The notes under the pieces: model-generated
What the model was told of the DNA's origin: nothing
Databases searched by the model: none
Seen by the model: only the letters and a program-made list of their open reading frames with translations
Virus record (IMG/VR): IMGVR_UViG_3300031784_000114
Span: 1-34,190 of that record
Reading direction: 5' to 3' (one strand)
Source: a virus
DNA length: 34,190 nt
Made by a program: the position numbers and the translations under genes
Shown: positions 175 to 15,797 of the stretch, piece after piece
Layout of the letters: the number at the start of each line of letters is the position of its first letter
Position numbering within the stretch: the stretch's first letter is position 1

Positions 175-175
175 A

Positions 176-829: not shown

Positions 830-830
830 G

Positions 831-1247: not shown

Positions 1248-1509
1248 TTGTTTGATTTTTAATTATAGTTATGTTTTTAGTAACGTTATTTATATCTCCA
1301 TCTAAATTATCTATTTCAGAGTCGATTAATTTAATATCTTCTATTAATTTTTTATTATCAACTTGAACGGAGTCTATTTCTTTTTGTATTGCCTCAATTT
1401 TGGCGTTATAACCTTTAATATCGGTTTTTATCTTACTACCTTGAAAAATGTTCCAAGCCGCTAAAAATATAATAATACCGAGTAAAATGTTTTGTTTATT
1501 AATCTTCAT
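1165..1509 (-). CDS. Small inner-membrane coiled-coil protein (i-spanin-like)
   Basis: 114 aa. Residues 7-23 are a single hydrophobic anchor (ILLGIIIFLAAWNIF), followed by a predicted periplasmic coiled coil over residues about 28-90 with regular Ile/Leu/Val spacing. The C-terminal tail is NFSDLEKFFSDRYSDKH. This N-in, C-out architecture and length match Rz-type i-spanins, which link the inner membrane to an outer-membrane partner during lysis. The following gene starts inside it in another frame, as Rz1 does within Rz, but the partner lacks a lipoprotein signal. It is the first gene after the clpP terminator, so it probably starts its own transcript. Confidence 0.65.
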   Translation of the reverse strand: MKINKQNILLGIIIFLAAWNIFQGSKIKTDIKGYNAKIEAIQKEIDSVQVDNKKLIEDIKLIDSEIDNLDGDINNVTKNITIIKNQTNAKIDSVNNYNFSDLEKFFSDRYSDKH

Positions 1510-1520
1510 AATTACTTTTA

Positions 1521-1530
1521 TAATAAATAT
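1521..1530 (-). promoter_or_regulatory. Recurrent AT-rich motif (ATATTTATTA) upstream of gene at 1509
   Basis: Read on the minus strand the site is ATATTTATTA, ending 11 bases before the ATG of the 114-aa gene and just after the clpP terminator. Nearly the same 10-mer precedes several other transcription-unit starts in this window. It could be a phage promoter element or a translation-initiation signal. The base composition makes chance matches possible. Confidence 0.3.
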
Positions 1531-1534
1531 GAAG

Positions 1535-1556
1535 AAGGGAGACTTTTGTCTCCCTT
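1535..1556 (-). terminator. Hairpin terminator after clpP
   Basis: A perfect 9-bp inverted repeat, AAGGGAGAC / GTCTCCCTT, encloses a 4-base loop. It lies 8 bases past the clpP stop codon and before the 114-aa gene. On the minus strand it is followed by a pyrimidine/AT-rich run without a long uninterrupted U tract, so termination strength is uncertain. The GC-rich stem stands out from the AT-rich surroundings. Confidence 0.7.
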
Positions 1557-1563
1557 TTACATT

Positions 1564-2238
1564 TTATGATTTTCTTACTACAATTTCATCTATAATTCCA
1601 TAATCTAACGCCTCATGACACCCCATCCAAAAATCTCTTGTGGCGTCTGTCATAACCTGTTCTTTGGTTTTTCCACAATATTTTCCCAATAGTTCGAATA
1701 GTCTGTCATTTTTTCTTCTCCACCACTTCATAGTAATTTCGGCGTCCTGAATATTACCCATCGCACCCCCCGAAGACTGGTGTAACATGATTTCAGAATC
1801 CTCCATCGCACCTCTTTTACCTTTTGTACCTGCACCTAAAAGGATTGATCCCATGGATGCTGCCATTCCTGTACAAATTGTTCTAATATCGGAGTGTACG
1901 TAATCCATAACATTTACCATAGATAAACCTGATTTTACGGATCCACCAGGACTGTCTATGTGCATTGTGATGTCATTATGATCTATACTATCAAGATACA
2001 ATAACTGTGCCTGTACTACTGATGACATATAATCATTAACTTCCCCAACCAAAACTAAAATTCTTTCCATCATCAAACGTGAAAATACGTCCATAACCGT
2101 CACATTCATTTGTCTTTCTTCTAAGATATAAGGAGTTAAACTGTTTTCAATCCTTTTATTGTAGTAGTCCAATGTTAATGAACTAACACCTTTGTCTTTT
2201 GCGTATAACCCAAAATCTTTAAACTGATTAGCGTTCAT
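1564..2238 (-). CDS. clpP: ClpP-like serine protease
   Basis: 224 aa, normal ClpP length. The Ser-His-Asp catalytic set is complete: Ser128 in GMAASMG, His153 in MLHQSSGG and Asp198 in TDATRD. The substrate-binding IDSPGGSV loop is at about 94-101. Residues about 40-64 (ERQMNVTVMDVFSRLMMERI) are very close to the start of Bacteroidota ClpP as I remember it, indicating acquisition from such a host. ClpP forms a tetradecameric barrel fed by ClpX/ClpA ATPases; no such ATPase gene is in this window, so the phage subunit may use host ClpX. A prohead-protease role is possible, but no capsid or portal genes are adjacent. A Bacteroidota-type promoter lies upstream and a hairpin terminator follows. 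Confidence 0.93.
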   Translation of the reverse strand: MNANQFKDFGLYAKDKGVSSLTLDYYNKRIENSLTPYILEERQMNVTVMDVFSRLMMERILVLVGEVNDYMSSVVQAQLLYLDSIDHNDITMHIDSPGGSVKSGLSMVNVMDYVHSDIRTICTGMAASMGSILLGAGTKGKRGAMEDSEIMLHQSSGGAMGNIQDAEITMKWWRRKNDRLFELLGKYCGKTKEQVMTDATRDFWMGCHEALDYGIIDEIVVRKS

Positions 2239-2260
2239 GTAAAATATGTTTTTGTATTAA

Positions 2261-2292
2261 CAAATATATAAAAAAAAACGAGAATTCAAAAA
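2261..2292 (-). promoter_or_regulatory. Bacteroidota-type promoter for clpP (TTG...TATATTTG)
   Basis: On the minus strand, TTTTTG (2292-2287) is followed after 18 bases by TATATTTG (2268-2261), a match to the Bacteroidota primary sigma -33 TTG / -7 TAnnTTTG consensus. The -7 element lies 22 bases before the clpP ATG. It sits in the 103-bp divergent gap between clpP and the plus-strand exonuclease gene. Confidence 0.55.
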
Positions 2293-2341
2293 TAATATTT
2301 GTGAAATATTTATAAATGTGATTAAATTTGAAAAAATATTG

Positions 2342-3130
2342 ATGGAAATGGAGGTTACTAAACTCCCAAGTGAAAAACTTTTAAAATGGTTTTTAGATAG
2401 GATAAACCATACATTTGTTTTTTTCGATACCGAAACTACAGGATTAGATAGAAATCCCGAAGAGGGTGGTTCAAACCAATTAACTCAAATTGGTGCAATC
2501 GCTTGTCAAATAAATGGTGAAACATTAAGATTTTTTGAAATAGATAGATTTAATTTAAAAATTAAATTAAATGATGATTTAAAGAATCAAATATCCACTG
2601 AACCCGATGAACCTGAAAAAGACACCGATGAGTATAAAAAATGGTTATTTGGTACTAAGAAGGGTATTTTAAAATTCAATCACTATGATTTAGTTAATAG
2701 TGATTCTTATGAAGATGAGAGATTAGCATTAGAAAAGTTTGATTCCTTTTTAAAGAAATTTAATGACGTTACTCTTATTGCACACAATGCACCCTTTGAT
2801 TTGAAATGGATACAGTTTCATAATTTATTCAAAGAAAGTACTGACGAAATAATTGATAGTATAGATTTTTTCAAAAACTTTTTCTTTCCAATATTAGATA
2901 AATTATCTAAAACTAATTCAGAATATAAATCTACTTTTGATAAGTTTCCTTCTAATAATAAGGGTAGTAAATCTGTTGGTTTGGGTAACATTGCAACAGG
3001 TTTTGACAATGAGATCAATCAATTAAAAAAGAAATTATCAGGTGCACATGATGCGTTAGTTGATTGTGAAATCGTTATCGATGTTTTTGAAAAAGGTCTC
3101 TTTATTGTTTATCGTTATTTGAACGATTAA
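2342..3130 (+). CDS. DnaQ-like 3'-5' exonuclease (DEDDh family)
   Basis: About 262 aa from the ATG at 2342; the frame is also open to a GTG at 2318 (270 aa), and I prefer ATG because its upstream is A-rich and GTG is rare here. In the longer numbering, the Exo I motif FFDTETTGLD carries Asp37 and Glu39, Exo II is IAHNAPFDLKW (Asp161), and Exo III is HDALVDC with His244 and Asp249, the DEDDh pattern. It would trim DNA or RNA 3' ends. A segment of more than 100 residues separates Exo I and Exo II, longer than in minimal DnaQ domains. It is the only plus-strand gene, overlaps the ATPase gene by 4 bp tail to tail, and is divergent from clpP, so it must have its own promoter. Confidence 0.88.
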   Translation: MEMEVTKLPSEKLLKWFLDRINHTFVFFDTETTGLDRNPEEGGSNQLTQIGAIACQINGETLRFFEIDRFNLKIKLNDDLKNQISTEPDEPEKDTDEYKKWLFGTKKGILKFNHYDLVNSDSYEDERLALEKFDSFLKKFNDVTLIAHNAPFDLKWIQFHNLFKESTDEIIDSIDFFKNFFFPILDKLSKTNSEYKSTFDKFPSNNKGSKSVGLGNIATGFDNEINQLKKKLSGAHDALVDCEIVIDVFEKGLFIVYRYLND

Positions 3131-5469
3131 GAAATTTTAGTAGTAACAAAATCTATTGAGGATATATTATCTTCTTTTTTAATCATTATAATATTATCTG
3201 ACCAATTTCTTATCAATGGATTGTGAGAAATCACCAAGATATGTTCAAAGTATTCTTTTATCTTCTTAAAAAATTCACCAACCATATCAAGATTTTCATC
3301 TGCAATTTTACCAAAAACTTCATCCATAACTACAATATTTGGCTTAGGTAATGAAGATATTTTTGTTAGTACACTACGAAGTGCTAATGATGATATTGTT
3401 CTTTCATATCCAGATCCTGCATTTAATGGTTTGATAACTCTTGTTTCAGTATCTATCATTAAAAATTCTACTTCATTTTTTTCATTAACATTTAATTCTA
3501 AAATAAAATGACAACTATCTACCAATAATCTATAAAGTTCATAGTTTAAAAGTGGTATCATGTTTTTCATGATTACTTTTGAAATACCATTTTTACCATA
3601 AACTGTTAAATATACTTTGAAAATAGAATTCAACTCCTCTTCCGCCTTAATCTTCTTAATTAAATCGTCATTTATTTCTATCTTTTGTGTCATTAAAACA
3701 ATATTAGTATTATGATTTTCAATAGACTTAGTTGATTGTTTTATATCAGCATTAGTTGTTTCTATTTTTGTTCTAACTGAAATTAATTCACCATCTATTT
3801 TTTGATTGTCTTCTGCTCTCTTTTTATTATTTTCGTAATTGTCAAGTTTAATTTGTTTTGAATTAATCTCAAGTTGTTTTTGATCGGTTTCTAATTCATA
3901 TCTTGCCTTCTTAAGTTTATTTCTTTCGTAGGTTTCAAATTCAGTTTTTAAATTTTCAAGAGTATTAGATTTTTCTTTAATTTTATCAAATTCTTTCTTG
4001 TTTGATTTTATGTTTTCTTCTATCTCTTCAATCTCTTTTTTTATCTTTTCAATTTCATCTGTATGATCCACCTCATCAAGTGGTCGGTTACAGGTTAGAC
4101 ATATAGTTCCTTCTGTTAATTGTTTTATTAATTTTTCTTTTTCTCCCTTTTCATATTTGTATGCAACTTCATACGAATATAAATCACCTAATGTTTCTTT
4201 CAAATCTCTATGCTCTTCTTCATCATAATACTTGGACGGCTCAACTACCGATACTTCTTGTGCATTTTTTTCACTTACACCTTTTTGTTTGTTTAATTCT
4301 TCAATCTCTCTCTTTAATAGTGTTGGATTAGTTTTAATTAAGTCCTGATCAACATCATTATTTTTAGAAGACAATAAATTGTCTCTTTTATCCTCTAACT
4401 TAATTAAATCTTTTTCTAATTTTTTTAACTCTCTTTCTAATCTTTCTATTTCATTTTTTGAATTGATAATACTATCGTTGTATTTTGTGTTATCAATTTC
4501 TAATTGAGTTATATTATTTGTATTTGAAACTAATTTTTTACTCCAATCGTTATATATCTCTTTTGCTATTTCTTCTTTTGTTTTCAGGTTTTCTAAACCG
4601 AGAAATTTAACAAGTATTTGACCTCTCGCAGTTGGTTTTGATTCGATCAATTGTTCCAAATTATTTCCTGTGGTCATGATGGTCGTTAAAAAATCTTCTT
4701 CAGTTCCTATTGCAGAAGATATAAACGCTTCGGTTTCTCTTCTTTGTTCTCCTGTTAGATTTTCAATTGTACCGTCTTCCTTTTTCTTATAAAATTCTAA
4801 TTTATTAGAAACACTATATTCTCCTGTCTTTGACTTTTTTCTTATTAGTTTCCTCTCTATTACATAGTCCTCATTATCAATTGTTATGTTACCTTTAACA
4901 GTTACATCATCTTTATCAGTAAATTTATTAAAAATCTCACCTATTGTTTTTGTTTTTGTTGTTGTGTTGAAAAATAGAAATAATAACAAATCTACTGATG
5001 ATGTAGATTTACCTCCAAAATTTTTCGGTGTCGATTCAATAACCGTGATGCCGGGTAACTCTGAAAAATTAATAAAATTATTTTCACCAAAAGAAAGGAA
5101 ATTTGAAAATTCAACACTTGTTATAAACCACTTATTATACCTTACTTTATTGGCATTTATCTTATCAATCTGAACATTAACTTTATTATCAAGTCTATCT
5201 AACATTTCCCATTTTGTGGTTATGTTATTCTCTTTAATAAAGTCTTTCATCAGTTTTTTCTGGTACTGGTGATCTAATATGTTATCAGTCGCTTCAAGTG
5301 ATTCTAATTGTATATTAGAATTATTAGTAATACTTTTAGTAACAACTTGAATATTTTTACTTTTGTATTTGTCTTGAAAATAAGATTTAACTCTTCTTAT
5401 TTTTTCTGATGTAAAATTTTCAGGGCTGTCTTCCCAAGTAACTTTAATGAAAGGATTCTTATAATTCAT
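3127..5469 (-). CDS. Rad50/SbcC/T4 gp46-like recombination ATPase subunit
   Basis: 780 aa. The ABC half-domains flank a long coiled coil (residues about 310-660) with a Cys457-x-x-Cys460 zinc hook in its middle. The N-lobe starts at about residue 113 (KWFITSVEFSNFLSFGENN). The P-loop is STPKNFGGKST (about 146-156), with Pro where the first Gly of GxxxxGKS is expected. The C-lobe carries a signature-like GSGYERT, Walker B VVMDEVFG (about 714-721) and the H-loop VISHNP (about 745-750). The family partners with the Mre11/gp47 nuclease to process DNA ends for recombination-dependent replication. The partner gene lies two genes upstream. The first about 110 residues are an extra N-terminal region I cannot assign. 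The gene starts 8 bases after the DUF1360-like gene. Confidence 0.92.
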   Translation of the reverse strand: MNYKNPFIKVTWEDSPENFTSEKIRRVKSYFQDKYKSKNIQVVTKSITNNSNIQLESLEATDNILDHQYQKKLMKDFIKENNITTKWEMLDRLDNKVNVQIDKINANKVRYNKWFITSVEFSNFLSFGENNFINFSELPGITVIESTPKNFGGKSTSSVDLLLFLFFNTTTKTKTIGEIFNKFTDKDDVTVKGNITIDNEDYVIERKLIRKKSKTGEYSVSNKLEFYKKKEDGTIENLTGEQRRETEAFISSAIGTEEDFLTTIMTTGNNLEQLIESKPTARGQILVKFLGLENLKTKEEIAKEIYNDWSKKLVSNTNNITQLEIDNTKYNDSIINSKNEIERLERELKKLEKDLIKLEDKRDNLLSSKNNDVDQDLIKTNPTLLKREIEELNKQKGVSEKNAQEVSVVEPSKYYDEEEHRDLKETLGDLYSYEVAYKYEKGEKEKLIKQLTEGTICLTCNRPLDEVDHTDEIEKIKKEIEEIEENIKSNKKEFDKIKEKSNTLENLKTEFETYERNKLKKARYELETDQKQLEINSKQIKLDNYENNKKRAEDNQKIDGELISVRTKIETTNADIKQSTKSIENHNTNIVLMTQKIEINDDLIKKIKAEEELNSIFKVYLTVYGKNGISKVIMKNMIPLLNYELYRLLVDSCHFILELNVNEKNEVEFLMIDTETRVIKPLNAGSGYERTISSLALRSVLTKISSLPKPNIVVMDEVFGKIADENLDMVGEFFKKIKEYFEHILVISHNPLIRNWSDNIIMIKKEDNISSIDFVTTKIS

Positions 5470-5477
5470 GTGGATTA

Positions 5478-5786
5478 TTATCCATTTTTATTTTCGAAAT
5501 ATTCAATTATTGCATTTAGTGCCCATACTGATCCTGCGGTAAACATTCCATCAAAGAATATTCCAAATATCCAATGAATATCGAAATAGTTTCTTGATAA
5601 ACCACCCAAACATAAAGATAGAAAGAATCCTACCCATGTTGAAGTGCAAAGTGTACAACTAACTAAATCACCAAAAAATTTTGAGTGTGATTTTATCCAT
5701 TCCCTTGTTGTTTCAAAGATACTTCCCCAAACAATAATCGATGTCATACCATATGACATAAAAATCCAAAATAATAATATATCCAT
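5478..5786 (-). CDS. DUF1360-like small membrane protein
   Basis: 102 aa with about three hydrophobic segments (residues about 3-22, 50-64 and 73-92). The motif CTLCTSTWVGFFLSL at about 43-57, a CxxCxxxW signature followed by a membrane helix, matches the DUF1360 pattern known from bacteria and phages; its function is unknown. It lies between the Val/Pro-repeat coiled-coil gene and the Rad50-like gene, in the same transcriptional direction. The start region ATATTGTTATATG is the same as that of the resolvase gene. The context suggests a membrane link for the replication/recombination operon, which is inference only. Confidence 0.72.
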   Translation of the reverse strand: MDILLFWIFMSYGMTSIIVWGSIFETTREWIKSHSKFFGDLVSCTLCTSTWVGFFLSLCLGGLSRNYFDIHWIFGIFFDGMFTAGSVWALNAIIEYFENKNG

Positions 5787-5833
5787 ATAACAATATTTTT
5801 TATAAAATAAGAAAAAAAAATGACAATTTGAAA

Positions 5834-6370
5834 TTACTCATCGTATAATGTATTCAAATCACTATTTTTTAAAAACCGACCTTTATTTAGTTTTTGTAAA
5901 GAAGATGTAATTTTTTCTAATTCAGTTTTTAAATCCTGATTTTCTTTCATTAATTTTTCTAATTCTTTTGTGTTTGTGACTTCTTTTTGTACCTCAACAA
6001 TTTTTTCAACAGGTACTTCTTTTATTACTTCTTTAATCACAATTTTTGTATCGCCTTTAATTTCAATTGGAACTTCTTTAACAACCTCAACAATTTTTTC
6101 AACAGGTACTTCTTTTATTACTTCTACGATTTTTTCTACCGGTACCTCTTTAATCACCTCAATAATCTTTTCAACTTCAATTTCTTTGATTACTTCTTTT
6201 TCAACTACTTTTTCTTTGCCTCTGGCAATTTTTGGTGTTTCACCATATTTTATAATAGAAAATCCTTTAGAAAAGATTTCTTTGGCAAGTTTATCAATAT
6301 CTGAAATTTTATTTAATTCACAATATTGTAAAAATTCATCATCCAATATTAAGGAGGTTTTCTTTTTCAT
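5834..6370 (-). CDS. Val/Glu/Pro-repeat coiled-coil protein
   Basis: 178 aa from the ATG at 6370; the frame also extends to a TTG at 6376, which I reject. Residues 1-50 look like a small folded domain (SLILDDEFLQYCELNKISDI). Residues 55-130 are tandem copies of an EVPVEKIVEVIK-type unit. Residues about 134-162 are a coiled coil. There is no signal peptide or membrane segment. The first 32 bases overlap the end of the Mre11/gp47-like gene, so translation is probably coupled. I do not recognise the function; the position between the two nuclease-complex subunits suggests an accessory or scaffold role. Confidence 0.65.
   Translation of the reverse strand: MKKKTSLILDDEFLQYCELNKISDIDKLAKEIFSKGFSIIKYGETPKIARGKEKVVEKEVIKEIEVEKIIEVIKEVPVEKIVEVIKEVPVEKIVEVVKEVPIEIKGDTKIVIKEVIKEVPVEKIVEVQKEVTNTKELEKLMKENQDLKTELEKITSSLQKLNKGRFLKNSDLNTLYDE
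5992..6125. repeat. 41-bp exact direct repeat within the coiled-coil gene
   Basis: The same 41 bases occur at 5992-6032 and 6085-6125, 93 bp apart, encoding two copies of the EVPVEKIVEV unit. Shorter, diverged copies fill the space between and after them. Conservation at the DNA level suggests recent duplication or gene conversion. Confidence 0.8.
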
Positions 6371-7145
6371 TTTCAATGTCTCTTATATCATTTATCGAAA
6401 AATGAAGAAATGGTTGTTCATTTTTCAAATCGTGAAACGTATATTCATCAGTTTCAACATTATATGTACCATAACCATGATGTTTAATTGTTTCACCAAA
6501 ATTTTGTTGGATTAATGAACCAATCATAACCGCCTTTCCACCATTAGGTAATTTAAACATTTGTCTTTTGTGTATATCACCACACAGTAATAAATCTAAG
6601 TTGATAAAATTAAGTCTATCATAACCATCTTCGAATTGAAAACCTATATCTGTTGACATTCCTTGAATCACCCCATGAAATAAACCAACATATAACATAT
6701 CTTCTTCTTTTTCAAACTGTGGTCTTTCATTATGTTGATATAATGAATAAACAACCCAATTAATATTTTCATCTTCATATACACCACTATCTTTATAATA
6801 TTTAATCTCATCACGATTCAACAACTCTACTATTGGTGTGATACTGTCCATTCTTTGAGTATTGTTTTCAAGAAAATCATGATTACCAGGTATGATAATA
6901 ACTCTTCCGATATGATCAACAAGTTGAGTAATAAACCAAGATGTTAGCATCATTTGCTCATTAGAGATGTTGATTTTCTGATGTGCTAAATCACCAACAA
7001 TTACAACTCTCACCTCTTCATAGTCATAACCTTTAATTTCTTTTTTTAAATTCTCAATAAGAATTTCAAATTGTTTTTTATATAGATCGTGTAACTGAAA
7101 TGTTCTGATATGTATATCAGCGATATGTATAAGTTTTTTTACCAT
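6339..7145 (-). CDS. Mre11/SbcD/T4 gp47-like nuclease subunit
   Basis: 268 aa metallophosphoesterase. The metal-binding motifs appear in order: HIADIHIRT (Asp10, His12), VGDLAHQ (Asp52), PGNHDF (Asn88, His89, Asp90), GLFHGVIQG (His157) and LCGDIHKR (Asp190, His192). It is the Mn-dependent nuclease partner of the Rad50/gp46-like ATPase encoded at 3127-5469, acting on double-strand ends and hairpins. The family often carries a C-terminal DNA-capping region; here the protein is short, ending about 75 residues after the last motif. It overlaps the upstream PD-(D/E)XK gene by 29 bases and the downstream coiled-coil gene by 32. Confidence 0.93.
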   Translation of the reverse strand: MVKKLIHIADIHIRTFQLHDLYKKQFEILIENLKKEIKGYDYEEVRVVIVGDLAHQKINISNEQMMLTSWFITQLVDHIGRVIIIPGNHDFLENNTQRMDSITPIVELLNRDEIKYYKDSGVYEDENINWVVYSLYQHNERPQFEKEEDMLYVGLFHGVIQGMSTDIGFQFEDGYDRLNFINLDLLLCGDIHKRQMFKLPNGGKAVMIGSLIQQNFGETIKHHGYGTYNVETDEYTFHDLKNEQPFLHFSINDIRDIENEKENLLNIG

Positions 7146-7998
7146 AATTTATATATTTTGTCATATCCAAGTTCATAACTTTATTAATTACATCTGGTGG
7201 TACTTTATATTCTTGATGTGTTCCATCATCTTTTAATAACACAATTACACAACCTAATAATTTTAAATTTTCATATTTTGTGCCTTTCAACATTTTAATC
7301 AATAATCTTGCATACAATGGTAATTGTAAATAATAATGACCTAACGCAGTATCATGATAGTTTTGAAATGGATCGTACATTTTACCGGTGTAATGTTGGA
7401 TTTCAAAGTTTTTTGGTTGATTTGTTTTCCAATCGGTAACAACTAAACCAAAATCTGTATTATCCTTATTCATCATTAACCAACACTTGTCAGGTTGTCC
7501 TGTATAACCAAGTTCATTATCGCCAAGTATTGCCTCTGTATCGAGAAGTATTGCACCTCTTTGTTCCATAATATTTAAAAATTCGGTTCCCGCTTTTATC
7601 ATCTCATTACTTCTATTTGTTTGTGTTTCATCACATTCAAATATTGGTTGCCTAACATCTTTATAATTACCATTTCTTGCTATCGCCTCCATTTCAAGTT
7701 CAAAGTGTACTCTACTTCCCATATTAGTTGCATAGGAACCAGCTTGTCTCCATTGTTCTTGTAATTGTGCTGCAGCTTCAGGATCACCATTAGACATTCT
7801 GAGAGCAGTACCTTCAGCATCAAATGGTTTGAAAAACTTTTTTATAACCTTAGAAACTGATGGAAATGTTTTTCTTAATACACCTTCCGTGTCTCTCATG
7901 TAATAGATATGTTCTTCTTCAACAAATGAGATATCTAATTCTTTTCTTCTGTTTTCTAATAATTCATTAATTTCTTTAGAAATTTCTTTTAAATTCAT
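7117..7998 (-). CDS. PD-(D/E)XK nuclease (RecB/Cas4-like exonuclease)
   Basis: 293 aa. Motifs typical of the RecB-type fold are present: GSRVHFELE (His98, Glu102), GYTGQPDKCW (Asp170), VVTDWKTNQ (Asp189, Lys191) and the downstream Gln helix YYLQLPLYAR (Gln225). No CxnC iron-sulfur cluster is evident, so it is nearer to phage RecB-like exonucleases than to Cas4. It would degrade or resect DNA ends. It starts with a one-base TAATG overlap with the primase stop and overlaps the gp47-like gene, placing it firmly in the replication/recombination operon. Confidence 0.88.
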   Translation of the reverse strand: MNLKEISKEINELLENRRKELDISFVEEEHIYYMRDTEGVLRKTFPSVSKVIKKFFKPFDAEGTALRMSNGDPEAAAQLQEQWRQAGSYATNMGSRVHFELEMEAIARNGNYKDVRQPIFECDETQTNRSNEMIKAGTEFLNIMEQRGAILLDTEAILGDNELGYTGQPDKCWLMMNKDNTDFGLVVTDWKTNQPKNFEIQHYTGKMYDPFQNYHDTALGHYYLQLPLYARLLIKMLKGTKYENLKLLGCVIVLLKDDGTHQEYKVPPDVINKVMNLDMTKYINYGKKTYTYR

Positions 7999-8936
7999 TA
8001 ATCTAACTGTTTAATTTTATAATTACTCAGATCTCCTTTGAGGTCTGCTATATCTTTATTTCCCTCCAATTTTATAGTATACACTTTACCCATAAGTTTA
8101 CCACAATTTAATTTATGATATAATTTTTCTGCATCAAACCAAGCATCGGGATCCAAAACAATTACCACATCTTTTTTAACATTATCATAAATTTTATCAA
8201 ATAAGTGTTGTGACATAAATTTACCTAACATAGGGATAGAATTAGGTAAGAAAATACTATCGAAAGCACCCTCAACAATATATATTCTTTCATTCCAATC
8301 AATTAAATGTTCATTCCAAATTATTATTTCTTTTTGTACCTCAGGATTTTTATACTTTAATTTTGTTTTAGATAAAAATGACCTTGCAACAAAATAGTTT
8401 AAATTTTTTTCAGTATCATATGAAGGAATTATAATCCTATTTTCATATAGACCACTTAAACAAAAACCAATATTATATTTTTTTATAATTTCATCTGTTA
8501 TGTTTCTATTTTTAATATAATTTAACGCTTGTTTATATTGTGGTAACAATTTAACTCCTTGTGACACTTCATTGAATGATACAAATTCTTTTGGTAGATA
8601 AATCCTTTTGTATATTCTTTTGTTTTCTTCGACCTCATCCGGTAATAATAGTTCGAATTTTTTTATTTGTTTTTTATTACCGTATTTTTTAACAAATTTA
8701 TATAATGATCCATGTGTATCATGTGATTCTGCACAAGACCAACATTTGTAAACTCTTAATTTATAGTTTATTTCTAAGTTACCTTTACCGTCTCCACTAT
8801 CTAATCCTTTAATTTCATATGAACACACGGGACAATCAAAAGAAATTTGGCACTTATAATCATTGTGTAATTTATAATCACCAAGAATTTCTTCTAAGAT
8901 ATCTATTATGGGTTCATAATTTAAATCATTAGACAT
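7998..8936 (-). CDS. DnaG-like DNA primase (zinc finger plus Toprim)
   Basis: 312 aa from the ATG at 8936 (MSNDLNYEP). A longer frame begins at 9002, but those extra codons lie within a rho-independent terminator, so I reject them. The N-terminus has a zinc-binding domain with CPVC (Cys35, Cys38) and CWSC (Cys65, Cys68). The catalytic core follows, with the Toprim motifs YIVEGAFDS (Glu222) and VLDPDAW (Asp262, Asp264). There is no helicase domain; length and order suit a stand-alone phage primase making RNA primers. It is the first gene of the operon that continues to the Rad50-like ATPase. Confidence 0.9.
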   Translation of the reverse strand: MSNDLNYEPIIDILEEILGDYKLHNDYKCQISFDCPVCSYEIKGLDSGDGKGNLEINYKLRVYKCWSCAESHDTHGSLYKFVKKYGNKKQIKKFELLLPDEVEENKRIYKRIYLPKEFVSFNEVSQGVKLLPQYKQALNYIKNRNITDEIIKKYNIGFCLSGLYENRIIIPSYDTEKNLNYFVARSFLSKTKLKYKNPEVQKEIIIWNEHLIDWNERIYIVEGAFDSIFLPNSIPMLGKFMSQHLFDKIYDNVKKDVVIVLDPDAWFDAEKLYHKLNCGKLMGKVYTIKLEGNKDIADLKGDLSNYKIKQLD

Positions 8937-8963
8937 GAATAAAATATAAGAAAAAAAAGTTGT

Positions 8964-9039
8964 AAAAAAAATGGGGGAGAACACCACCTCTCCCCCTACC
9001 AACTAAACGCAGATTTTAACATCTACGTCCCGTCTCCAT
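8964..9039 (-). ncRNA. Candidate structured leader/small RNA ending in a terminator
   Basis: This unusually GC-rich stretch lies between the resolvase stop and the primase start. On the minus strand it follows an ATATTTATTA motif and contains a 7-bp hairpin (CGTAGAT / ATCTGCG, 9027-9008, with one G-U pair possible only on this strand), then the terminator at 8996-8973 and an 8-base U tract. A 7-codon mini-ORF (METGRRC) starts at 9039 and stops inside the first loop. The layout is like an attenuator, or the 3' UTR of the resolvase message. No known RNA family was recognised. Confidence 0.35.
8973..8996 (-). terminator. Rho-independent terminator between resolvase and primase
   Basis: GGGGGAGA and TCTCCCCC form a perfect 8-bp stem with an 8-base loop. 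On the minus strand it is followed by A and eight T, then a second T-rich run. This is the best terminator in the window. It ends resolvase or upstream transcripts and means the primase operon needs its own promoter or regulated readthrough. Confidence 0.9.
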
Positions 9040-9049
9040 TAATAAATAT
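9040..9049 (-). promoter_or_regulatory. Recurrent AT-rich motif (ATATTTATTA) before the leader element
   Basis: On the minus strand ATATTTATTA directly precedes the ATG of a 7-codon mini-ORF and the structured element ending at 8964. The same 10-mer occurs before the genes starting at 1509 and 28624. The function is unproven. Confidence 0.3.
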
Positions 9050-9076
9050 AATATAATAATTTTCAGATAAGAAATC

Positions 9077-9688
9077 TTAGTTGCCGGATTTATCTGATTT
9101 CAACATATTAACGAATCCAATAACCGCAGTTGCGGCGTCCGCCATGTCGTAATTTTCTTTTTTTAAATTTCCTGTCTTACCGTATAACCAATTTACCTCA
9201 GGACAAACTGAGTTTACATGTTCCCAAATGACGTGTTTTTTATCAATATCTTTGGGATAACCACCAAATAATACATTACGACCTTTATCGTTTTGTCCAA
9301 CTAAATCAGGAAAAGCAAATTTTCTTGCATTATATGTTGATATAAATGTCGGTATAATACCTAAAATATCATAACAATTTTTCAATATTAATGTATTATA
9401 TCTTAAAAGTGTTCCGACTGTATAAATGTTATTTGATTGTAATAACGGTTCTTCAATTATAATTCTCGTAATACCGATATCTTTATAATTTTCTAAATGT
9501 TTTTTAAATGCATCCGCCTTTTTTAATAGTTCCTCAATTTTATCTTCTGGTTGCGGTTTTATCTTTGGTGAAAAGTGAGTTAATTCTAATAATTTAGAAC
9601 CTGACATATCGAAGAGAGCCCATCCAATAGTTTTGGTGGAAATATCCAAACCCAAAATTTTTGGCTTATTCTTAAATTTGTTTTCCAT
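9077..9688 (-). CDS. ruvC: RuvC-like Holliday junction resolvase
   Basis: 203 aa with an RNase H-like fold signature. The first strand ILGLDISTKTIGWALFD carries Asp15; IIIEEPLL gives Glu79/Glu80; the C-terminal NYDMADAATAVIG provides Asp181 and Asp184. These are the four acidic positions of RuvC-type endonucleases, which cut four-way junctions and resolve or debranch replicating phage DNA. The start region ATATTGTTATATG is shared with the DUF1360-like gene. It lies 40 bp after the structural block and is followed by a structured UTR and a terminator. Confidence 0.87.
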   Translation of the reverse strand: MENKFKNKPKILGLDISTKTIGWALFDMSGSKLLELTHFSPKIKPQPEDKIEELLKKADAFKKHLENYKDIGITRIIIEEPLLQSNNIYTVGTLLRYNTLILKNCYDILGIIPTFISTYNARKFAFPDLVGQNDKGRNVLFGGYPKDIDKKHVIWEHVNSVCPEVNWLYGKTGNLKKENYDMADAATAVIGFVNMLKSDKSGN

Positions 9689-9728
9689 ATAACAATATAT
9701 AAATAATAATATTAAGAATGTAAAGATT

Positions 9729-11906
9729 TTAGAAATCTAATTTTACTGCAAATACTTGTGTACCAATTCTTTTTATTGGAATCGCCGATTTTGCAACAAT
9801 AAGAGGTTCTTTATTTGAATCTAAAAGTGCTATTTCTGTTAACATCTTTTCTTTTCCTAAAGAGTACGTCGGATTTTGTGTTTCTAAAAATTGGTCACTT
9901 GGTAGATTTACCAAAAACTTCATTTGTTCAACGTCGGTTGCTCTTACTAATCTAATACTACCGGGGAATGGTTGTTCGTCACCAAATTGAGGAACGGTAG
10001 ATCCTGTTAAGGTGGTATCGCTCATATAATTAATTGATAACCCTGACATATGGTTTTCTAAATCAAAATAATTTGTTGATCCTGTGTATCCCGAATAATA
10101 TATTGTAAACGTTTTATCTAATAAATTTGTAGGATTTATTAAACCTGACACATGATTAGGAATTTGTGATGTCAAGTCAACTTTTTTCCATGCATTACTT
10201 GAAGGTATTTCACCAATACTATTTTGTATTTGAACTAATGCATAAAATTTATCCGCAACAAAACCGTCGATCACATTTGAAAAAGATGTTTTCATTGTCG
10301 AAAATGTCGTTGCACCACTTGTGGATCCACTAAATTTCAAAGTTACTTGTGATGGTACTGTTGTCCCTGTTACTTTATTATAGTAATTACAAGGTAATGA
10401 ATGTATTGTGTTGTTTGTTGTATTTTCAAACATATATGTCACCCAAACAGTTTGATTCGTACTTCCTGTTAACATAGAGTTTTCGGCAATAGTATCACTC
10501 GGTACTGTTGATATCTTTGGTGATGGTAATGTATATTTTCTATTTGATCTATAATCTAATACTGCAACCAATTCTTGGTCATCAAAAACTACAATCTTTT
10601 TTGTTGGGTAAATTTTACCAACTTTATTTCCTTGTTCATCTAAAAGATATCTAAATAATAACTCGAATCTTGAATCAGTTAAACCGGTGGTTGGTTTTAC
10701 GTAATAATCAACACTATCCATAGTGAATAAAGCACCAATAGTGGTACCCGTATTTCTATGGTATTGAATGAATGGGATATATATTTCAAAATATTCAGTA
10801 TCACTTATTGGATCACCATTCTCATCTTCTACAATTGATATATCTAATCCTGTTATTCCTGTTTTGTTACTTATATAATCGTCATACTTAAAAAATCTTT
10901 CAGGATCATTTCTTAAATCACCTAATTCAGAATAATGTATAATCGCTAAACATCTTTGTTCTGATGGTAAAACATCAATAACTTCACCATATGAATTTGA
11001 AAATGATGTTGGATTAGAAATACTTCCGCCAGTGAAATTTGTAAATTTTTGTAGATTTGAATTATAACCTAAAAATTCTTTTGTTGATACAAATCTATTA
11101 CTTGTGTACCCCGTCAAACTTTCATCGTTTCCGTCATAATCAGATCCAATTGGTTTGTCATCCCAAACAATATTGAGTGTCCATGAATTTAATTGACCTG
11201 AAAAATCAACCGGTTCAGGTAAACATACATCGGCAAGGTCAGTACTATTCGGATATTCTTGTTCACAATCATTACAAATTACTTGTGCATATCCAGAGAT
11301 ACTTGATAGATTAGGTGTTTTCCTATCTAAAGTTAGAATATTTTGTGTTGTCCCCGTTGTAACATCAATAACTCTATATACAAAACTATTTGATTGTCCA
11401 GTCAATGTAGGTACTGAACCACAGAATCTATCCAAAACAACTGTAATATATTCACAATCAACAAATGTGTTTCCACTTGGAACTACTAAAGACGTTGATC
11501 CACTTAATGAAGATATTGTAATTTCCTCAACACCACATTCTATTGTTGATCCAATACAAGTAACATTATCATATTCAATGTAATTAGATACAAATCCCGC
11601 AGGACCCATAACATTTCTTATTGTATTTGTAACTGAGTTTTGTATTGGATTACCGTATGTCGTGGTATTAGTGTTACTATCTACCTTATAAGGGTATTTT
11701 ACACCTGTTTCTTTTTCATTAGGTGCCGATACTTTTTGATGTGTAGTTTGACTTGTTAAACCTGTAAAAGGAGTAGTATAGTCAAATTCAGAATCACCAA
11801 CTTGAAAGTACTGAATGTTAAAACTTCCTTTCGCAATAGCATTCCTTCCTCTTTGGGTTATTCTTGCTGATAAAAATTCCGAATTATTACTATTTAAAAA
11901 ACTCAT
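9729..11906 (-). CDS. Large virion structural protein (tail/baseplate or fibre base)
   Basis: 725 aa, rich in Thr, Ser and Gly with many predicted beta strands. It starts MSFLNSNNSEFLSARITQRG and has a region (ARITQRGRNAIAKGSF, then FQVGDSEFDY) like the N-terminal 'start of fibre' modules of phage tail proteins. The C-terminus (residues about 655-725) contains TEIALLDSNKEP, IVAKSAIPIKRIG and FAVKLDF, a pattern seen at the ends of tail-associated proteins. No enzyme motif was found. It is the last gene of the structural block. The specific role is inference. Confidence 0.65.
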   Translation of the reverse strand: MSFLNSNNSEFLSARITQRGRNAIAKGSFNIQYFQVGDSEFDYTTPFTGLTSQTTHQKVSAPNEKETGVKYPYKVDSNTNTTTYGNPIQNSVTNTIRNVMGPAGFVSNYIEYDNVTCIGSTIECGVEEITISSLSGSTSLVVPSGNTFVDCEYITVVLDRFCGSVPTLTGQSNSFVYRVIDVTTGTTQNILTLDRKTPNLSSISGYAQVICNDCEQEYPNSTDLADVCLPEPVDFSGQLNSWTLNIVWDDKPIGSDYDGNDESLTGYTSNRFVSTKEFLGYNSNLQKFTNFTGGSISNPTSFSNSYGEVIDVLPSEQRCLAIIHYSELGDLRNDPERFFKYDDYISNKTGITGLDISIVEDENGDPISDTEYFEIYIPFIQYHRNTGTTIGALFTMDSVDYYVKPTTGLTDSRFELLFRYLLDEQGNKVGKIYPTKKIVVFDDQELVAVLDYRSNRKYTLPSPKISTVPSDTIAENSMLTGSTNQTVWVTYMFENTTNNTIHSLPCNYYNKVTGTTVPSQVTLKFSGSTSGATTFSTMKTSFSNVIDGFVADKFYALVQIQNSIGEIPSSNAWKKVDLTSQIPNHVSGLINPTNLLDKTFTIYYSGYTGSTNYFDLENHMSGLSINYMSDTTLTGSTVPQFGDEQPFPGSIRLVRATDVEQMKFLVNLPSDQFLETQNPTYSLGKEKMLTEIALLDSNKEPLIVAKSAIPIKRIGTQVFAVKLDF

Positions 11907-11909
11907 ATC

Positions 11910-11919
11910 TTATAAATAT
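11910..11919 (-). promoter_or_regulatory. Recurrent AT-rich motif (ATATTTATAA) upstream of gene at 11906
   Basis: ATATTTATAA on the minus strand lies only 3 bases before the ATG. The identical 10-mer precedes the fibre gene (23208-23217) and, on the plus strand, the exonuclease gene (2306-2315). The short spacing argues for a translation-initiation role, or a leaderless start, rather than an ordinary -10 element. Confidence 0.28.
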
Positions 11920-11932
11920 TTTAAATTATTTT

Positions 11933-13369
11933 TTAACTTCCACCACAATCATTATTGTCGACACAAGGTGTACTCGACAATATCGCAGATGAATATCCAA
12001 GATATTGTGAATCATTTTTATAGTACGTCCCCGATGATGTTATCGATTGTAAACAATTAGTTACTATGTTTCCTGCTGTGTATCCTGTTATTGTTATTGA
12101 ATTCCCATTATAATCAACCGCACTAAAGAAAACTGCCCCATTTTGTAATGGATTAGTATTTCCTGTCGCATCGTCTAAATCAGTTTGTAAAACCGTTATG
12201 TCACAACAAAAAGATGGCGGATTTGTAGGAGTCGGTGTTGGTGTAGGTGTAGGTGTAGGTGTAGGTGTTACACATTGAATATATCCACTTGGGGTAGTTG
12301 AACTTATAAAATCGTAAGTTATTGTATATGGGTCACATGTAGAATCACATTCAGCAATATAATATCCACTCGTTACACCCGTTACCGATCCTGTTGATGA
12401 TCCATTTAAAATTAAAATGTTTGTGTAATTTGTAAAGGGATACCCTATACAATCACCTGTTCTAACTCCTTGTATTGTTACAGTAATATTCTCGGTTGCA
12501 TTTATAGGTGTTCCACCAGGACTATCATATAAAGTTACCGTAATAGTACTTATACTATCATAATTTTCGCCAGGATCTCCACATTCAGACGGTACCTGAG
12601 TAAGGTAATCAACAGTAAAATCTAAACACATAGAAACCGGAGGTGTTGGTGTTGGAGTATCGGTAGGTGTGGGTGTTGGTGTTGGTGTTGGTGTTGGTGT
12701 TGTACATGGTGTACACGATGAAGGGTTAAATAAGACTGATGGTGTTGTGTCTTTGGTCCATGATCTTACATTAACACCGTCAGAAACATAGTACGTACCA
12801 TTTGATAGTGGTGGAATTTCAGTTGAATTTAATGTTGTATAATTACAATAATCAGGACCTCCTGTAAATGAAACATTTGTTAATATTTGTCCACTAACTT
12901 GTCCACACGCACCGTTAATTGTTGACGATAAATATAACTGTATAGTCGGTGTTGGGGTTGGCGTTGGTGTTGCAGTGGGAGTAGGTGTTGGAGTTGTGGT
13001 AGGTGTAGGTGTTGGAGTTGTGGTAGGTGTTGGTGTGGGTGTGGCGGTTGAAGTTGGCGTTGGAGTATCGGTTGGTGTTGCAGTGGGAGTAGGTGTTGGA
13101 GTTGTGGTAGGTGTAGGTGTTGGTGGAATTATTTCTCCTCCACCACAGGTAACTGTCGATGAAGATGTCCAATCACTTTTAATTCCTCCGCAATCGGTCC
13201 TCATACCATAGTCATAAGTTTCACCATCGGTTAGGGATGTGATTACTAAAGGTGAACTTGAAGTTGTACCTGTTGTATATGTAACATCTGATGATAGTTT
13301 ATATCTATATTCAAAAGTACAACCTATACAACTCACAGGTGGTGTCCAATTTATAGTTAAAGTTGCCAT
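11933..13369 (-). CDS. Modular adhesin-like virion protein with Pro-Thr linkers
   Basis: 478 aa. Residues 1-77 look like a fibronectin type III domain (LTINWTPPVSC..., with LTDGETYDYGMRTDC near its end). Three Pro-Thr (PTPTPTPT) linkers at about 83-140, 223-243 and 367-382 separate small cysteine-containing domains at about 145-220, 245-365 and 384-478. The last domain (ATGNTNPLQNG) is paralogous to one in the gene at 14210-15523. No signal peptide or transmembrane helix was seen. It is probably a receptor-binding or decoration protein exposed on the virion. No enzymatic motif. Confidence 0.68.
   Translation of the reverse strand: MATLTINWTPPVSCIGCTFEYRYKLSSDVTYTTGTTSSSPLVITSLTDGETYDYGMRTDCGGIKSDWTSSSTVTCGGGEIIPPTPTPTTTPTPTPTATPTDTPTPTSTATPTPTPTTTPTPTPTTTPTPTPTATPTPTPTPTIQLYLSSTINGACGQVSGQILTNVSFTGGPDYCNYTTLNSTEIPPLSNGTYYVSDGVNVRSWTKDTTPSVLFNPSSCTPCTTPTPTPTPTPTPTDTPTPTPPVSMCLDFTVDYLTQVPSECGDPGENYDSISTITVTLYDSPGGTPINATENITVTIQGVRTGDCIGYPFTNYTNILILNGSSTGSVTGVTSGYYIAECDSTCDPYTITYDFISSTTPSGYIQCVTPTPTPTPTPTPTPTNPPSFCCDITVLQTDLDDATGNTNPLQNGAVFFSAVDYNGNSITITGYTAGNIVTNCLQSITSSGTYYKNDSQYLGYSSAILSSTPCVDNNDCGGS
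12951..13122. repeat. Hexanucleotide-based Pro-Thr repeat tract
   Basis: An array of GGTGTT/GGTGTA/GGAGTT-type hexamers (plus-strand reading) encodes Thr-Pro pairs in the 478-aa protein. A stretch of about 50 bases starting near 12966 recurs near 13075, and its core recurs in the gene at 14210. Shorter arrays of the same type are at 12226-12270 and 12641-12702. Confidence 0.85.
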
Positions 13370-13396
13370 TTATATTTTGTTCATATTTTAATTAAT

Positions 13397-14194
13397 TTAT
13401 ATTGGACAAATTGCCGATGGTTGACCGTCTTTCCACATTGTAACAGAAACATTTAATGGTGTTGGATCGACAATATATTCATCATATCCAACAAAGTTAT
13501 CGATTGGTACACTTGTGTACAATTGAATTGGAGTTGATAAATCACAAACTATAAAATTCACTATATTACCTGATCCGTTTTGCCAAAATCCTTTTATTTT
13601 ATATGGTAATACCAATTCACTTACGGTTAATGTTCCATTTTTTCCCGATTCTGATAATGTTACATTTTCATTTAACAATATGTTATTATCTTTATCATAT
13701 ATTGTTATTCCTCCTCCAGCATTTTCTGTTATTGACCAAAATAATTGTGTTGGTGTAACTGTGGGAGTTGGTGTTGGTGTAGGAGTTACGGTTGGAGTTG
13801 GCGTTGGCGTATCTGTTGGTGTAGGAGTAGGGGTTGCAGTTGGTGTAGGAGTTACGGTTGGTGTAGGAGTTACGGTTGGTGTAGGAGTTACGGTTGGTGT
13901 AGGAGTAGGAGTTGCAGTTGGTGTAGGAGTAGGTGTGGGTGTTGGTTTGTTTTGTACCGGTAAACACAATGTATTTCCACTACATACTCCATTAGGTGCT
14001 ATTTTAATATATGATGTGTTATCATTAATGTTTGTAATCGTGATGCCAGGAGTGTTTAATGTTGACAATAAAACACTTCCATATGATGGAATTAGTGTAC
14101 AAGAATTACAATCACCATCAGTACATTCTAAAATTTGTACTGTTGATATTTGTGTCCCTCCTGTAATTCCTGATATCGTTATATTAAATGACAT
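13397..14194 (-). CDS. Small modular adhesin-like virion protein with Pro-Thr linker
   Basis: 265 aa. There is a beta-rich N-terminal domain at residues 1-78 with two cysteine pairs (CTDGDCNSC, then CSGNTLC). A Pro-Thr linker follows at about 81-149, then a C-terminal domain at about 150-265 beginning [18 protein letters not shown]. The layout of domain, PT linker and domain matches the two flanking genes, so the three probably arose by duplication and domain exchange. No membrane segment or enzyme motif. Likely virion surface or fibre tip; function not recognised. Confidence 0.65.
13750..13955. repeat. Pro-Thr coding tandem repeat with exact 18-bp units
   Basis: This hexamer-based array encodes (PT)n. 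Within it, an 18-bp unit (GGTGTAGGAGTTACGGTT) is repeated exactly three times at 13842-13895 with a partial fourth copy. Exact copies imply recent slippage. Confidence 0.88.
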
Positions 14195-14209
14195 ATTTTA
14201 TATTAATTA

Positions 14210-15523
14210 TTAACAAGTAACAAAAACTCCTACTCCACTGGAATTAACAAGTATATTGAAATAAATTATATTACTTGAGGTTGCAACAAAACTGTATGGT
14301 GTTGTTTTACCACAATATCCAATATAATTATTTATATCAATTGCTTCTGTATTATCTTGATTTTGTCCTTCACCAAATTGAATATCTTGATCACCGGTGT
14401 TTGTTAATCCAATATAAATCATATCACCAATATTCGCATATATTGCACTACTAACATTTGGGTAATTTGACATAAATCCATTAGTTGTGGTAGTTGCCCA
14501 TGGAGCGTCTGGTAAATATTCTTCCCATGTACCACTATTTACTTTAACCCATACTCTTAAATCTGTTTCACTATGTGACGCAAATGATGTGCATCTAATA
14601 GTTAAAGGTATCATTGAAGCTTCTGTGGGTGTCGGAGTGGGTGTTGGTGTAGGTGTAGGAGATGTACAGCAAACTCCTGTATCTTCATATGTTGACAACA
14701 CTTGGAACGGTGTTATCGGATAACTTGAACCAAATTCTTGTTGGTCATCGTGATAATAATAAACTATTGGTTGATAATCACCATTTATTGTTGAACAAAA
14801 TGCGTTTGTATATGTACCGTCAGTGTCATATATTAATTCTTCTTGTGTTAATAATTCAGGGCAATTCCAATACAATACATATACCTTACCATCTTCAGAC
14901 GGATTTGTGTTTCCTGTTGCTGACAACAAATCATTTGAAGAAATTGTTACATCAAAATATACACATTCACACGGTTCTGTTGGGGTTGGTGTTGGTGTTG
15001 GTGTTGCAGTGGGAGTAGGTGTATCGGTAGGTGTTGGAGTTGGTGTAGGAGTTACGGTTGGAGTTGGAGTTGGCGTATCTGTTGGTGTAGGTGTAGGAGT
15101 TACGGTTGGAGTTGGCGTTGGGTCGTTATTACATATCAAACTATCTATTATTGGTGGAGCACAATTAGCAACATAAAAAACACCTCCACCAACTACTAAT
15201 CCAATATCACAACATCCAACACAGTCACCATAGTAAATTGAATCATGTGTGTATATGTTTTGTATTAGATACCCTGTGTCAGTTGTTTCACCTGTATAGA
15301 CAAATTTGAACCAATATTGTGTATTAAATGTTGCACCCGTAAAAACAATAGGATTAACATCATAATCTCTATAAGTTGATCCTGTATAGATCACACCACT
15401 ATTTGCACCTATAGAATATGCAGAAAAACCAGAGACATGACTTCCTAAAGTTGTTCCGGTTTTGTAAAATAATGTAAAATTATTTTCTAAGTCTATATTG
15501 TGTAATCTAATGTTCAACCCCAT
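14210..15523 (-). CDS. Modular adhesin-like virion protein with Pro-Thr linkers
   Basis: 437 aa from the ATG at 15523 (MGLNIRLHNIDLENNF); an upstream in-frame TTG at 15544 is rejected. The N-terminal domain (1-133) includes paired cysteines (GDCVGCCDIG). A PT linker follows at about 135-182, then a domain at about 184-285 that resembles the last domain of the 478-aa protein (ATGNTNPSEDG here, ATGNTNPLQNG there). A second short PT linker at about 288-300 leads to a C-terminal domain at 302-437 containing WVKVNSGTWEEYLPDAPW. Probably a virion adhesin. It is the first gene after the terminator at 15560-15582, so it likely begins a transcript. Confidence 0.67.
   Translation of the reverse strand: MGLNIRLHNIDLENNFTLFYKTGTTLGSHVSGFSAYSIGANSGVIYTGSTYRDYDVNPIVFTGATFNTQYWFKFVYTGETTDTGYLIQNIYTHDSIYYGDCVGCCDIGLVVGGGVFYVANCAPPIIDSLICNNDPTPTPTVTPTPTPTDTPTPTPTVTPTPTPTPTDTPTPTATPTPTPTPTEPCECVYFDVTISSNDLLSATGNTNPSEDGKVYVLYWNCPELLTQEELIYDTDGTYTNAFCSTINGDYQPIVYYYHDDQQEFGSSYPITPFQVLSTYEDTGVCCTSPTPTPTPTPTPTEASMIPLTIRCTSFASHSETDLRVWVKVNSGTWEEYLPDAPWATTTTNGFMSNYPNVSSAIYANIGDMIYIGLTNTGDQDIQFGEGQNQDNTEAIDINNYIGYCGKTTPYSFVATSSNIIYFNILVNSSGVGVFVTC
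14980..15121. repeat. Pro-Thr coding hexamer repeat tract
   Basis: Hexamers of the GGTGTW/GGAGTW type encode Thr-Pro repeats of the 437-aa protein. The segment GTTGCAGTGGGAGTAGGTGT also occurs in the repeat tract of the gene at 11933-13369. A shorter tract lies at 14625-14661. Confidence 0.83.
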
Positions 15524-15559
15524 GATATAATAAATACAACTCAAAGAAAATTAAATAAA

Positions 15560-15582
15560 AAACCCTTCAAATTGAAGGGTTT
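15560..15582 (-). terminator. Rho-independent terminator after the fibre operon
   Basis: AAACCCTTC and GAAGGGTTT form a 9-bp stem (11 bp if the loop closes) around a 5-base loop. On the minus strand it continues into TTTTTTATTTAATTTT, a good U tract. It lies 23 bases past the stop of the 63-aa membrane protein and before the 437-aa adhesin gene. Confidence 0.9.
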
Positions 15583-15605
15583 ATTGTTTTAAAATATTTT
15601 TAACT

Positions 15606-15797
15606 TTAATGTAATGGATAAATTGTATCAGTTGAATTAATCATCATATTTTGATAATACGATTGATTAATTGTTTGTGTTTTTTTTGTTTGATTGTTAT
15701 CTAACATAAATAATCCGTACATTAGTGTTGAAATTAATAATAACATTAATAAAAATTTATTAGTTTTTTCTGACTCGTTTTTAAGAATTAGTTCCAT
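15606..15797 (-). CDS. Small single-pass membrane protein
   Basis: 63 aa from the ATG at 15797 (MELILKNESEKTNKF); a TTG two codons upstream is rejected. Residues about 16-32 (LLMLLLISTLMYGLFML) are one membrane helix. The C-terminal half is polar and Asn/Thr/Tyr-rich. The start overlaps the end of the giant fibre gene by 17 bases, suggesting translational coupling, and a terminator follows. Function not recognised; a small lysis or membrane factor is possible. Confidence 0.58.
   Translation of the reverse strand: MELILKNESEKTNKFLLMLLLISTLMYGLFMLDNNQTKKTQTINQSYYQNMMINSTDTIYPLH

Follow-up and report, generated by a model that had tools for sequence, protein, structure and literature searches.

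A conserved two-hairpin RNA element, probably a small RNA gene, between the RuvC-like resolvase and DnaG-like primase genes of uncultivated phages

The locus

The window, by which we mean the whole stretch of DNA that was analysed (34,190 nucleotides of IMG/VR virus record IMGVR_UViG_3300031784_000114), carries on its minus strand a gene for a RuvC-like resolvase and, beyond it, a gene for a DnaG-like primase, and the core of a putative small RNA (9035-8967, minus strand) lies between them. The features of the region, in 5' to 3' order on the minus strand, are as follows.

9077-9688, minus strand: RuvC-like resolvase, upstream (phrog_159, E 7.5e-7)
9042-9050, minus strand: promoter-like box TATATTTAT, just upstream of the core (sequence match only)
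9016-9039, minus strand: mini-ORF METGRRC, not a conserved feature
8967-9035, minus strand: core of the putative small RNA, match to covariance model R1 (61.7 bits, E 7.3e-15)
9029-9034, minus strand: 5' unpaired segment GACGGG, which appears in loci picked by RuvC similarity alone
9008-9027, minus strand: hairpin 1, CGTAGA/TCTGCG (two-sided changes in 6/6 pairs, 98.6% of cells paired, 60 copies)
8999-9003, minus strand: unpaired linker GUUGG, present in 57/60 copies
8973-8996, minus strand: hairpin 2 (terminator), with covariation; arms 8996-8989 and 8980-8973, loop GGUGGUGU at 8988-8981
8964-8971, minus strand: T-run of the terminator, 8 T in the window
8943-8948, minus strand: second promoter-like box TATATT, a short way ahead of the primase ATG (assigned from its letters alone)
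7998-8936, minus strand: DnaG-like primase, downstream (phrog_47, E 1.5e-40)

Covariance model R1 was built from 20 copies of the element with the window's own copy left out, and it found a single convincing match in the window, the runner-up scoring 9.4 bits. An earlier, sequence-only reading of this region had described a GC-rich element ahead of primase, in agreement with the composition of the core, whose G+C is 0.48 against approximately 0.28 in the surrounding 2-kb windows. Folded as minus-strand RNA, the 86-nt stretch reaches -31.8 kcal/mol (z -4.9), and as plus-strand RNA -20.2 kcal/mol (z -4.8), with 0/200 shuffles as good in either case; since both strands fold far better than shuffles, energy alone cannot pick the strand. 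The terminator, which had been called strong, deserves the description: its hairpin (8996-8973) and eight T rank first of the 13 terminator-like sites found in positions 1-20000, where 7.3 (sd 2.6) were expected from shuffles. This predicted intrinsic terminator would form the 3' end of the small RNA gene.

Elsewhere in the window, near-perfect palindromic terminator-like hairpins that score on both strands occur at 1533-1558 and 15560-15582, and three successive proteins encoded in 11933-15544 all match one uncharacterised family, phrog_15511. With respect to the flanking genes, the RuvC-like protein (9077-9688) is better conserved than the adjoining primase (7998-8936), at 91 vs 76% (L002/L082) and 85 vs 69% (L073/L085) within the same contigs.

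Conserved structure and strand

The element has a conserved RNA structure of two hairpins. Covariance analysis in relatives, which the sequence-only reading had put forward as a check, showed both hairpins to be conserved with compensatory changes. In the alignment of 20 copies, 98.0% of the cells pair, where shuffles average 63.6% and slid versions never exceed 57.7%; two-sided changes occur in 13/15 pairs (10.0 in shuffles, 2/500 as high), and covariation scores 0.833 vs 0.195. Among 60 distinct copies, in an alignment that was fitted to the covariance model, 98.0% of the cells are paired (55.1% in shuffles) and 349 cells carry a two-sided change (108.8 in shuffles, 0/500 as high), while the bare number of pairs that change two-sidedly, 15/15, is not above shuffles (mean 14.0; 147/500 as high).

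A G-U pair specific to minus-strand RNA had also been pointed out in the window. It is present, and the strand that it favours is borne out by the wobble cells of the 60 copies, 68 of which are G.U in minus-strand RNA vs 2 that are A.C, indicating that the functional RNA is the minus strand.

Sequence motifs and variation among copies

The usual order in RuvC-bearing loci is the box TATATTTAT, a few bases, GGACGGGA, hairpin 1 with a GAAA or UUAAAA loop, UUUGGUUGGU, a GC-rich hairpin with the loop GGUGGUGU, a T-run, a T-rich stretch with the second box and then the primase ATG. Among the 60 distinct copies GACGGG is exact in 43 and G[A/G]CGGG is found in 48, the terminator loop is GUGGUGU in 52 with the core [U/C]GGUG in all 60, and the T-run consists of nine T in 44; these counts include pattern-chosen copies, the unselected evidence being that from the RuvC loci and from copies found via neighbouring proteins. 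For the A1/A2 copies, selection itself depended on a pattern (GACGGG plus a following A or G, GTTGG, GTGGTGT), and the lack of variation in those columns is a product of that choice. The set of 61 copies is one of chosen representatives, from which L505 and L511 (matched) and repeats were left out.

Hairpin 1 varies in length and also in its loop, which many relatives have as GAAA and others as UUAAAA. A GAC/GUU helix that closes it is part of the minimum-energy fold, but both of its sides vary so little across copies that they speak neither for nor against it. In hairpin 2, two-sided changes were found in 9/9 pairs, with 97.6% of cells paired (60 copies). One copy (L511:3441-3560) has about 50 extra nt in the region of hairpin 1, with the conserved segments still on both sides, and its match spans 120 nt. 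Some copies lose GACGGG or have an altered loop; the divergent copies are L073, L087, L385, L418, L473 and L479 among the 60, together with L505 and L086 outside them.

The element is not protein-coding, as length differences between copies are not in threes and the start codon is not conserved. The mini-ORF METGRRC that had been read in the window does exist (ATG GAG ACG GGA CGT AGA TGT TAA), but it is not conserved in relatives: an ATG near the 5' end was found in 12/60 copies, 7 of which have TAG immediately after it, and the window's ATGGAGACGGG is otherwise found only in L001, a near-identical relative. The sequence-only reading had named a lack of conservation of the first hairpin or the mini-ORF as part of what would refute it, and on this point its two parts diverge, hairpin 1 being conserved and the mini-ORF not.

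Distribution and host

The element was found in 74 of the 80 RuvC-bearing IMG/VR loci (two of the 74 are cut by the contig end), and the six misses were L061, where the contig ends, and L074, L075, L076, L078 and L079, where another gene follows RuvC. Loci reached via distant primases and a distant RuvC gave 91/160 matches (28/86 at E below 1e-4 and 63/74 at E below 1e-3), many of them on contigs already counted elsewhere. Of 37 contigs searched, 24 had exactly one copy, 13 had none and 0 had two, in a count for which some contigs over 200 kb were scored at 141 candidate places, such that a second weak copy could escape; L086, one of the 13 contigs scored negative, has a degenerate copy that is nevertheless recognisable by eye.

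Several other matches were rejected. Those of the model in L434-L436 overlap apparent coding sequence; two weak model matches (30.9 and 29.9 bits) in 395 Bacteroidota genomes are without the loop and were judged to be chance; and a pattern scan of genome contigs, which gave at least 80 matches from many phyla among the matches listed, was set aside as chance, with only L244 and L333 among the fetched loci fitting a stricter pattern with the T-run. In cultured phages, neither the 1.2-kb region nor the RuvC protein had a match. The primase is 31.6% identical to that of Flavobacterium phage immuto, and one model search, which took in 74 loci and also covered the immuto primase region, gave no covariance-model match in the latter. 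A blastn match in a Pelagibacter phage RNA polymerase gene was short (E 0.3) and was ignored.

The host of the phage is probably a Bacteroidota bacterium. The GC content of four related contigs is 31-34%, contigs reach 335 kb, and bS21 genes were found in 10 of the 26 contigs searched, five of which (G001, G002, G003, G005, G009) have the element; bS21 was not seen in 11/16 element-bearing contigs nor in the window itself, which speaks against the placement given next, though all of these may be fragments. GC content, contig size, bS21 genes and TATATTTG boxes (see below) are the grounds on which the group apparently belongs, by resemblance rather than by phylogeny, to the type of the bS21-encoding Bacteroidetes myophages as these are presented by Chen et al. 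2022 (PMC9723584), the main text of which makes no mention of 'non-coding', 'small RNA' or 'intergenic'.

Promoter-like boxes and relation to the neighbouring genes

An AT motif had been noticed upstream of the element; a conserved promoter-like box, TATATTTAT, lies just upstream in 60/60 copies. At least 7/9 of its positions are matched in all 60 distinct copies, a level that 61% of shuffles also reach, whereas at least 8/9 positions are matched in 55/60 copies compared with 16.1% of shuffled upstreams and 0/60 stretches further upstream. Transcription would probably start at approximately 9037-9034. The TATATTTAT box resembles both Bacteroidota-type TATATTTG and late-like TATTTATA boxes. In contigs G004, G006, G007 and G008 (L343-L378) two classes of box stand before genes: the Bacteroidota-like TATATTTG, and TATTTATA, which precedes several genes starting ATGGCA and reads as the T4 late box, TATAAATA, reversed.

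The second promoter-like box, between the terminator and the next ATG, is present in 58/60 copies (300 shuffles: mean 31.5, maximum 41 of 60). In the outgroups L522, L524, L529, L530 and L532, RuvC is directly followed by primase, with TTGACA and a promoter-like box and no element; their box types before the primase ATG are TATATT, TATAAT, TATCTT and TATACT, and the further outgroups L518, L520 and L521 are without TTGACA. As some outgroups have promoter-like sequence but no element, the comparison, made without a tree, suggests that a RuvC-primase gap with a primase promoter already in it later acquired the element. The primase starts only a few bases past the promoter-like box in the window (8936-8948) and in L522, L524, L529, L530 and L532 (with TTGACA upstream), a spacing which suggests that the primase mRNA may be leaderless or nearly so.

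When IMG/VR was scanned for the pattern irrespective of context, the complete listing comprised 69 matches, of which 65 are true and 4, with neither terminator nor primase, are chance. Primase lies downstream of 64 of the 65 true matches, the remaining stretch ending 12 bases past the match, while RuvC and primase are each within 200 nt in 56/65, RuvC is about 890 nt off in 8, and 1 stretch is too short to tell. Genes are inserted between RuvC and the element in L066 (UDPG_MGDP_dh), L479 (GIY-YIG) and L513 (a 67-aa ORF), and an Aminotran_3 gene (407-aa aminotransferase) stands between the element and primase in L412/L110. Given these intervening whole genes, the element is part of neither neighbour's reading frame nor 3' end. 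It does, however, stay in the company of primase.

These arrangements bear on the explanation that the element does no more than end the RuvC transcript as an ordinary intrinsic terminator. In most of the 80 loci RuvC is indeed followed at once by a strong hairpin and T-run; termination, however, needs no conserved loop, linker, 5' segment or covarying hairpin 1, a promoter-like box sits between RuvC and the element, and the element remains with primase where genes insert behind RuvC. We judge this explanation to be most improbable, and the copies that are set apart from RuvC by a whole gene also contradict the earlier suggestion that the stretch might be just a resolvase 3' UTR.

The position upstream of primase in 64/65 true context-free matches leaves room for a cis role on that gene, such as that of a leader or attenuator in which a ligand, a protein or translation acting at hairpin 1 and the unpaired segments would govern readthrough of the terminator. 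The terminator indeed stands ahead of primase, and there are conserved unpaired segments either side of hairpin 1. Against this, the mini-ORF is not conserved and neither is an antiterminator pairing of the 5' end with the terminator. The competition that had been proposed, in which GGAGA at the start of the element would contend for the TCTCC arm of the terminator stem, is not conserved, at least five contiguous complementary bases being present in 12/60 copies vs a proportion of 0.22 when the partners are mismatched; and the antiterminator test, which covered pairing of the 5' end with the terminator 3' arm, gave 0.012 expected pairs in the window ensemble and a median of 0.002 across copies. 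Furthermore, attenuation does not require a conserved terminator loop, the second promoter-like box lies past the terminator (58/60 copies, shuffles at most 41), and in L412/L110 a whole aminotransferase gene separates the element from primase. A cis-acting primase leader is thus unlikely in our estimation, and of the original description, 'attenuator-like or small-RNA element', the attenuator half and the regulatory leader of primase that it implied are not supported, while the small-RNA half is supported by the box, the covarying hairpins, the terminator and the strand-specific wobbles.

An element that adjoins primase and has a G-rich transcript could also be pictured as the primer transcript of a replication origin. 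No cumulative GC skew extremum was seen at the element in four large contigs, however, and such a primer does not require a structured, terminated RNA with a conserved loop; we give this idea next to no credence.

Function and possible targets

From its anatomy and conservation, we infer that the element is a phage gene in its own right for a small noncoding RNA, one that probably acts in trans, a reading to which we assign a probability of roughly 0.6. The RNA, of approximately 70-75 nt, would start a few bases past the TATATTTAT box, with the unpaired GACGGG as its 5' end, followed by hairpin 1 and then by an exposed GUUGG, and would stop at the intrinsic terminator, with GUGGUGU displayed in the terminator loop. 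Primase would be transcribed separately, from its own promoter-like box. Action in trans is likely because evolution has kept the unpaired G-rich segments but let the stems bearing them vary freely, and the unpaired segments may serve as seeds for a C-rich target RNA or as a protein-bound site.

A rival proposal is that of a protein-binding RNA or decoy, whose conserved segments would bind a phage or host protein (RNA polymerase, a ribosome factor or a nuclease), titrating or recruiting it. Conservation of the unpaired segments in similar geometry would suit such a role, as would the lack of a convincing mRNA target (see below), whereas the variable length of hairpin 1, with a match of 120 nt in L511, would not; we regard the proposal as decidedly doubtful.

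With regard to mRNA targets of a small RNA, strong pairing at 665 ORF starts in four contigs was slightly more frequent than in one shuffle each for the loop (36 vs 25) and the linker (22 vs 12), with no excess of complements to the 5' segment (2 vs 5). Compared with 56 permutations, the loop gave 44 vs 27.0 at ORF starts (2/56 as high) and, inside coding sequence, 86 vs 48.9 at +30 to +100 (1/56) and 61 vs 49.2 at +100 to +170 (9/56). Since the excess is equal or greater within coding sequence, it provides no pointer to start-site targets and looks like sequence composition, and phage mRNA start sites were rejected as targets. A test of ortholog groups gave two weak leads, a Methyltransf_24 gene (16/500 nulls) and a phage sigma factor (45/500 nulls), both uncorrected, and for these the pairing is not conserved among relatives. 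The sigma-factor starts in L358:13555-14364 and L591 have ACACC(A)AC, complementary to the RNA loop, just before the ATG, and this is absent in the other relatives read; the relative in L344 has Sigma70_r2 and r4 domains.

Another candidate target was ribosomal RNA. GACGGG is complementary to CCCGUC, and the loop GGUGGUGU to ACACCGCC with one G.U, the two sites overlapping within the universal 16S stretch ACACCGCCCGUC in antisense order. Across the 7,089 windows of a Bacteroidota rRNA operon, the consensus loop GGUGGUGU finds its best partner in UACACACCGCCC, while CCCGUC, which overlaps it, is the site for the 5' segment, with 6 windows better; with other first bases of the loop, 5 or 6 windows are better than the decoding site. 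When the segments were permuted with their composition kept, 10 (L550) and 7 (L551) of 1680 pairs, counting the real pair, placed the two sites equally well together, for a target that was found after several had been looked at. Natural variants break the 16S pairing, in the 5' segment in L073, L418, L473, L479 and L505 and in the loop in L087 and L385, and because these divergent copies lose complementarity the decoding-site match is only a lead. An antisense RNA made by the phage against the decoding site of the small subunit, bound to 30S subunits or precursors, would restrain host ribosomes or aid their remodelling; so universal a target would mean that phage translation is struck too, which counts against this reading, and we rate it as very unlikely. 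The 16S 3' tail, AACACCUCC, was rejected as a loop target, being weaker than the decoding site and having a conserved mismatch.

Several relatives of these phages also carry ribosomal protein bS21. In their account of such phages, McNutt et al. 2023 (PMC9976891) speculate that they may encode products aiding bS21 exchange on the ribosome, and a ribosome-directed RNA is in that light worth testing; the same account describes the hosts as largely without Shine-Dalgarno signals.

Comparison with known systems

The element is a real phage RNA family that lies outside Rfam 15 at gathering score, with the small-RNA reading supported and the leader reading not. Uncultivated phages thereby gain a well-delimited small RNA with clear covariation and testable conserved unpaired segments; should its target prove to be the ribosome or a phage regulator, control at the RNA level would become open to study in these phages. 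In the window, Rfam 15 gave 0 matches at gathering score; a permissive search gave 9, the best of which (CrcZ, E 0.016, and RF_site9, 0.036) lie on the plus strand and fall far short of gathering score, and membership of FopS (RF04319) was rejected at 14.9 bits, the gathering score being 56. Among the matches listed in the literature on phage-encoded, structured, intergenic or ribosome-directed small RNAs, the element is not described.

In leader-peptide transcription attenuators, a short ORF and a terminator precede the gene and alternative pairing governs the outcome. The element shares with them a terminator ahead of a gene, here primase, and, in the window's copy, a short ORF; it differs from them in that the ORF and the alternative pairing are not conserved.

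A likeness in layout is seen with FopS/GibS of Bacteroides (RF04319), which, as reported in PMC11697453, is a short RNA with a Bacteroidota-type promoter, where the element has a promoter-like box, an unpaired 5' seed, where the element has a putative one, and a Rho-independent terminator, and the sequence of which is also reported there in one Caudovirales phage. In the same report, however, FopS has 14 paralogues in B. thetaiotaomicron, compared with at most one copy per contig searched here, and its consensus consists of a single-stranded 5' stretch and the terminator hairpin with no first hairpin. The phage-encoded regulatory RNAs covered by a review (PMC12197685), in the text of which 'Bacteroid' and 'rRNA' do not occur, come mostly from temperate phages. 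Notwithstanding these differences, they are, as the element probably is, small RNAs made from phage genomes, and some of those in the review affect replication (PreS on dnaN, OOP).
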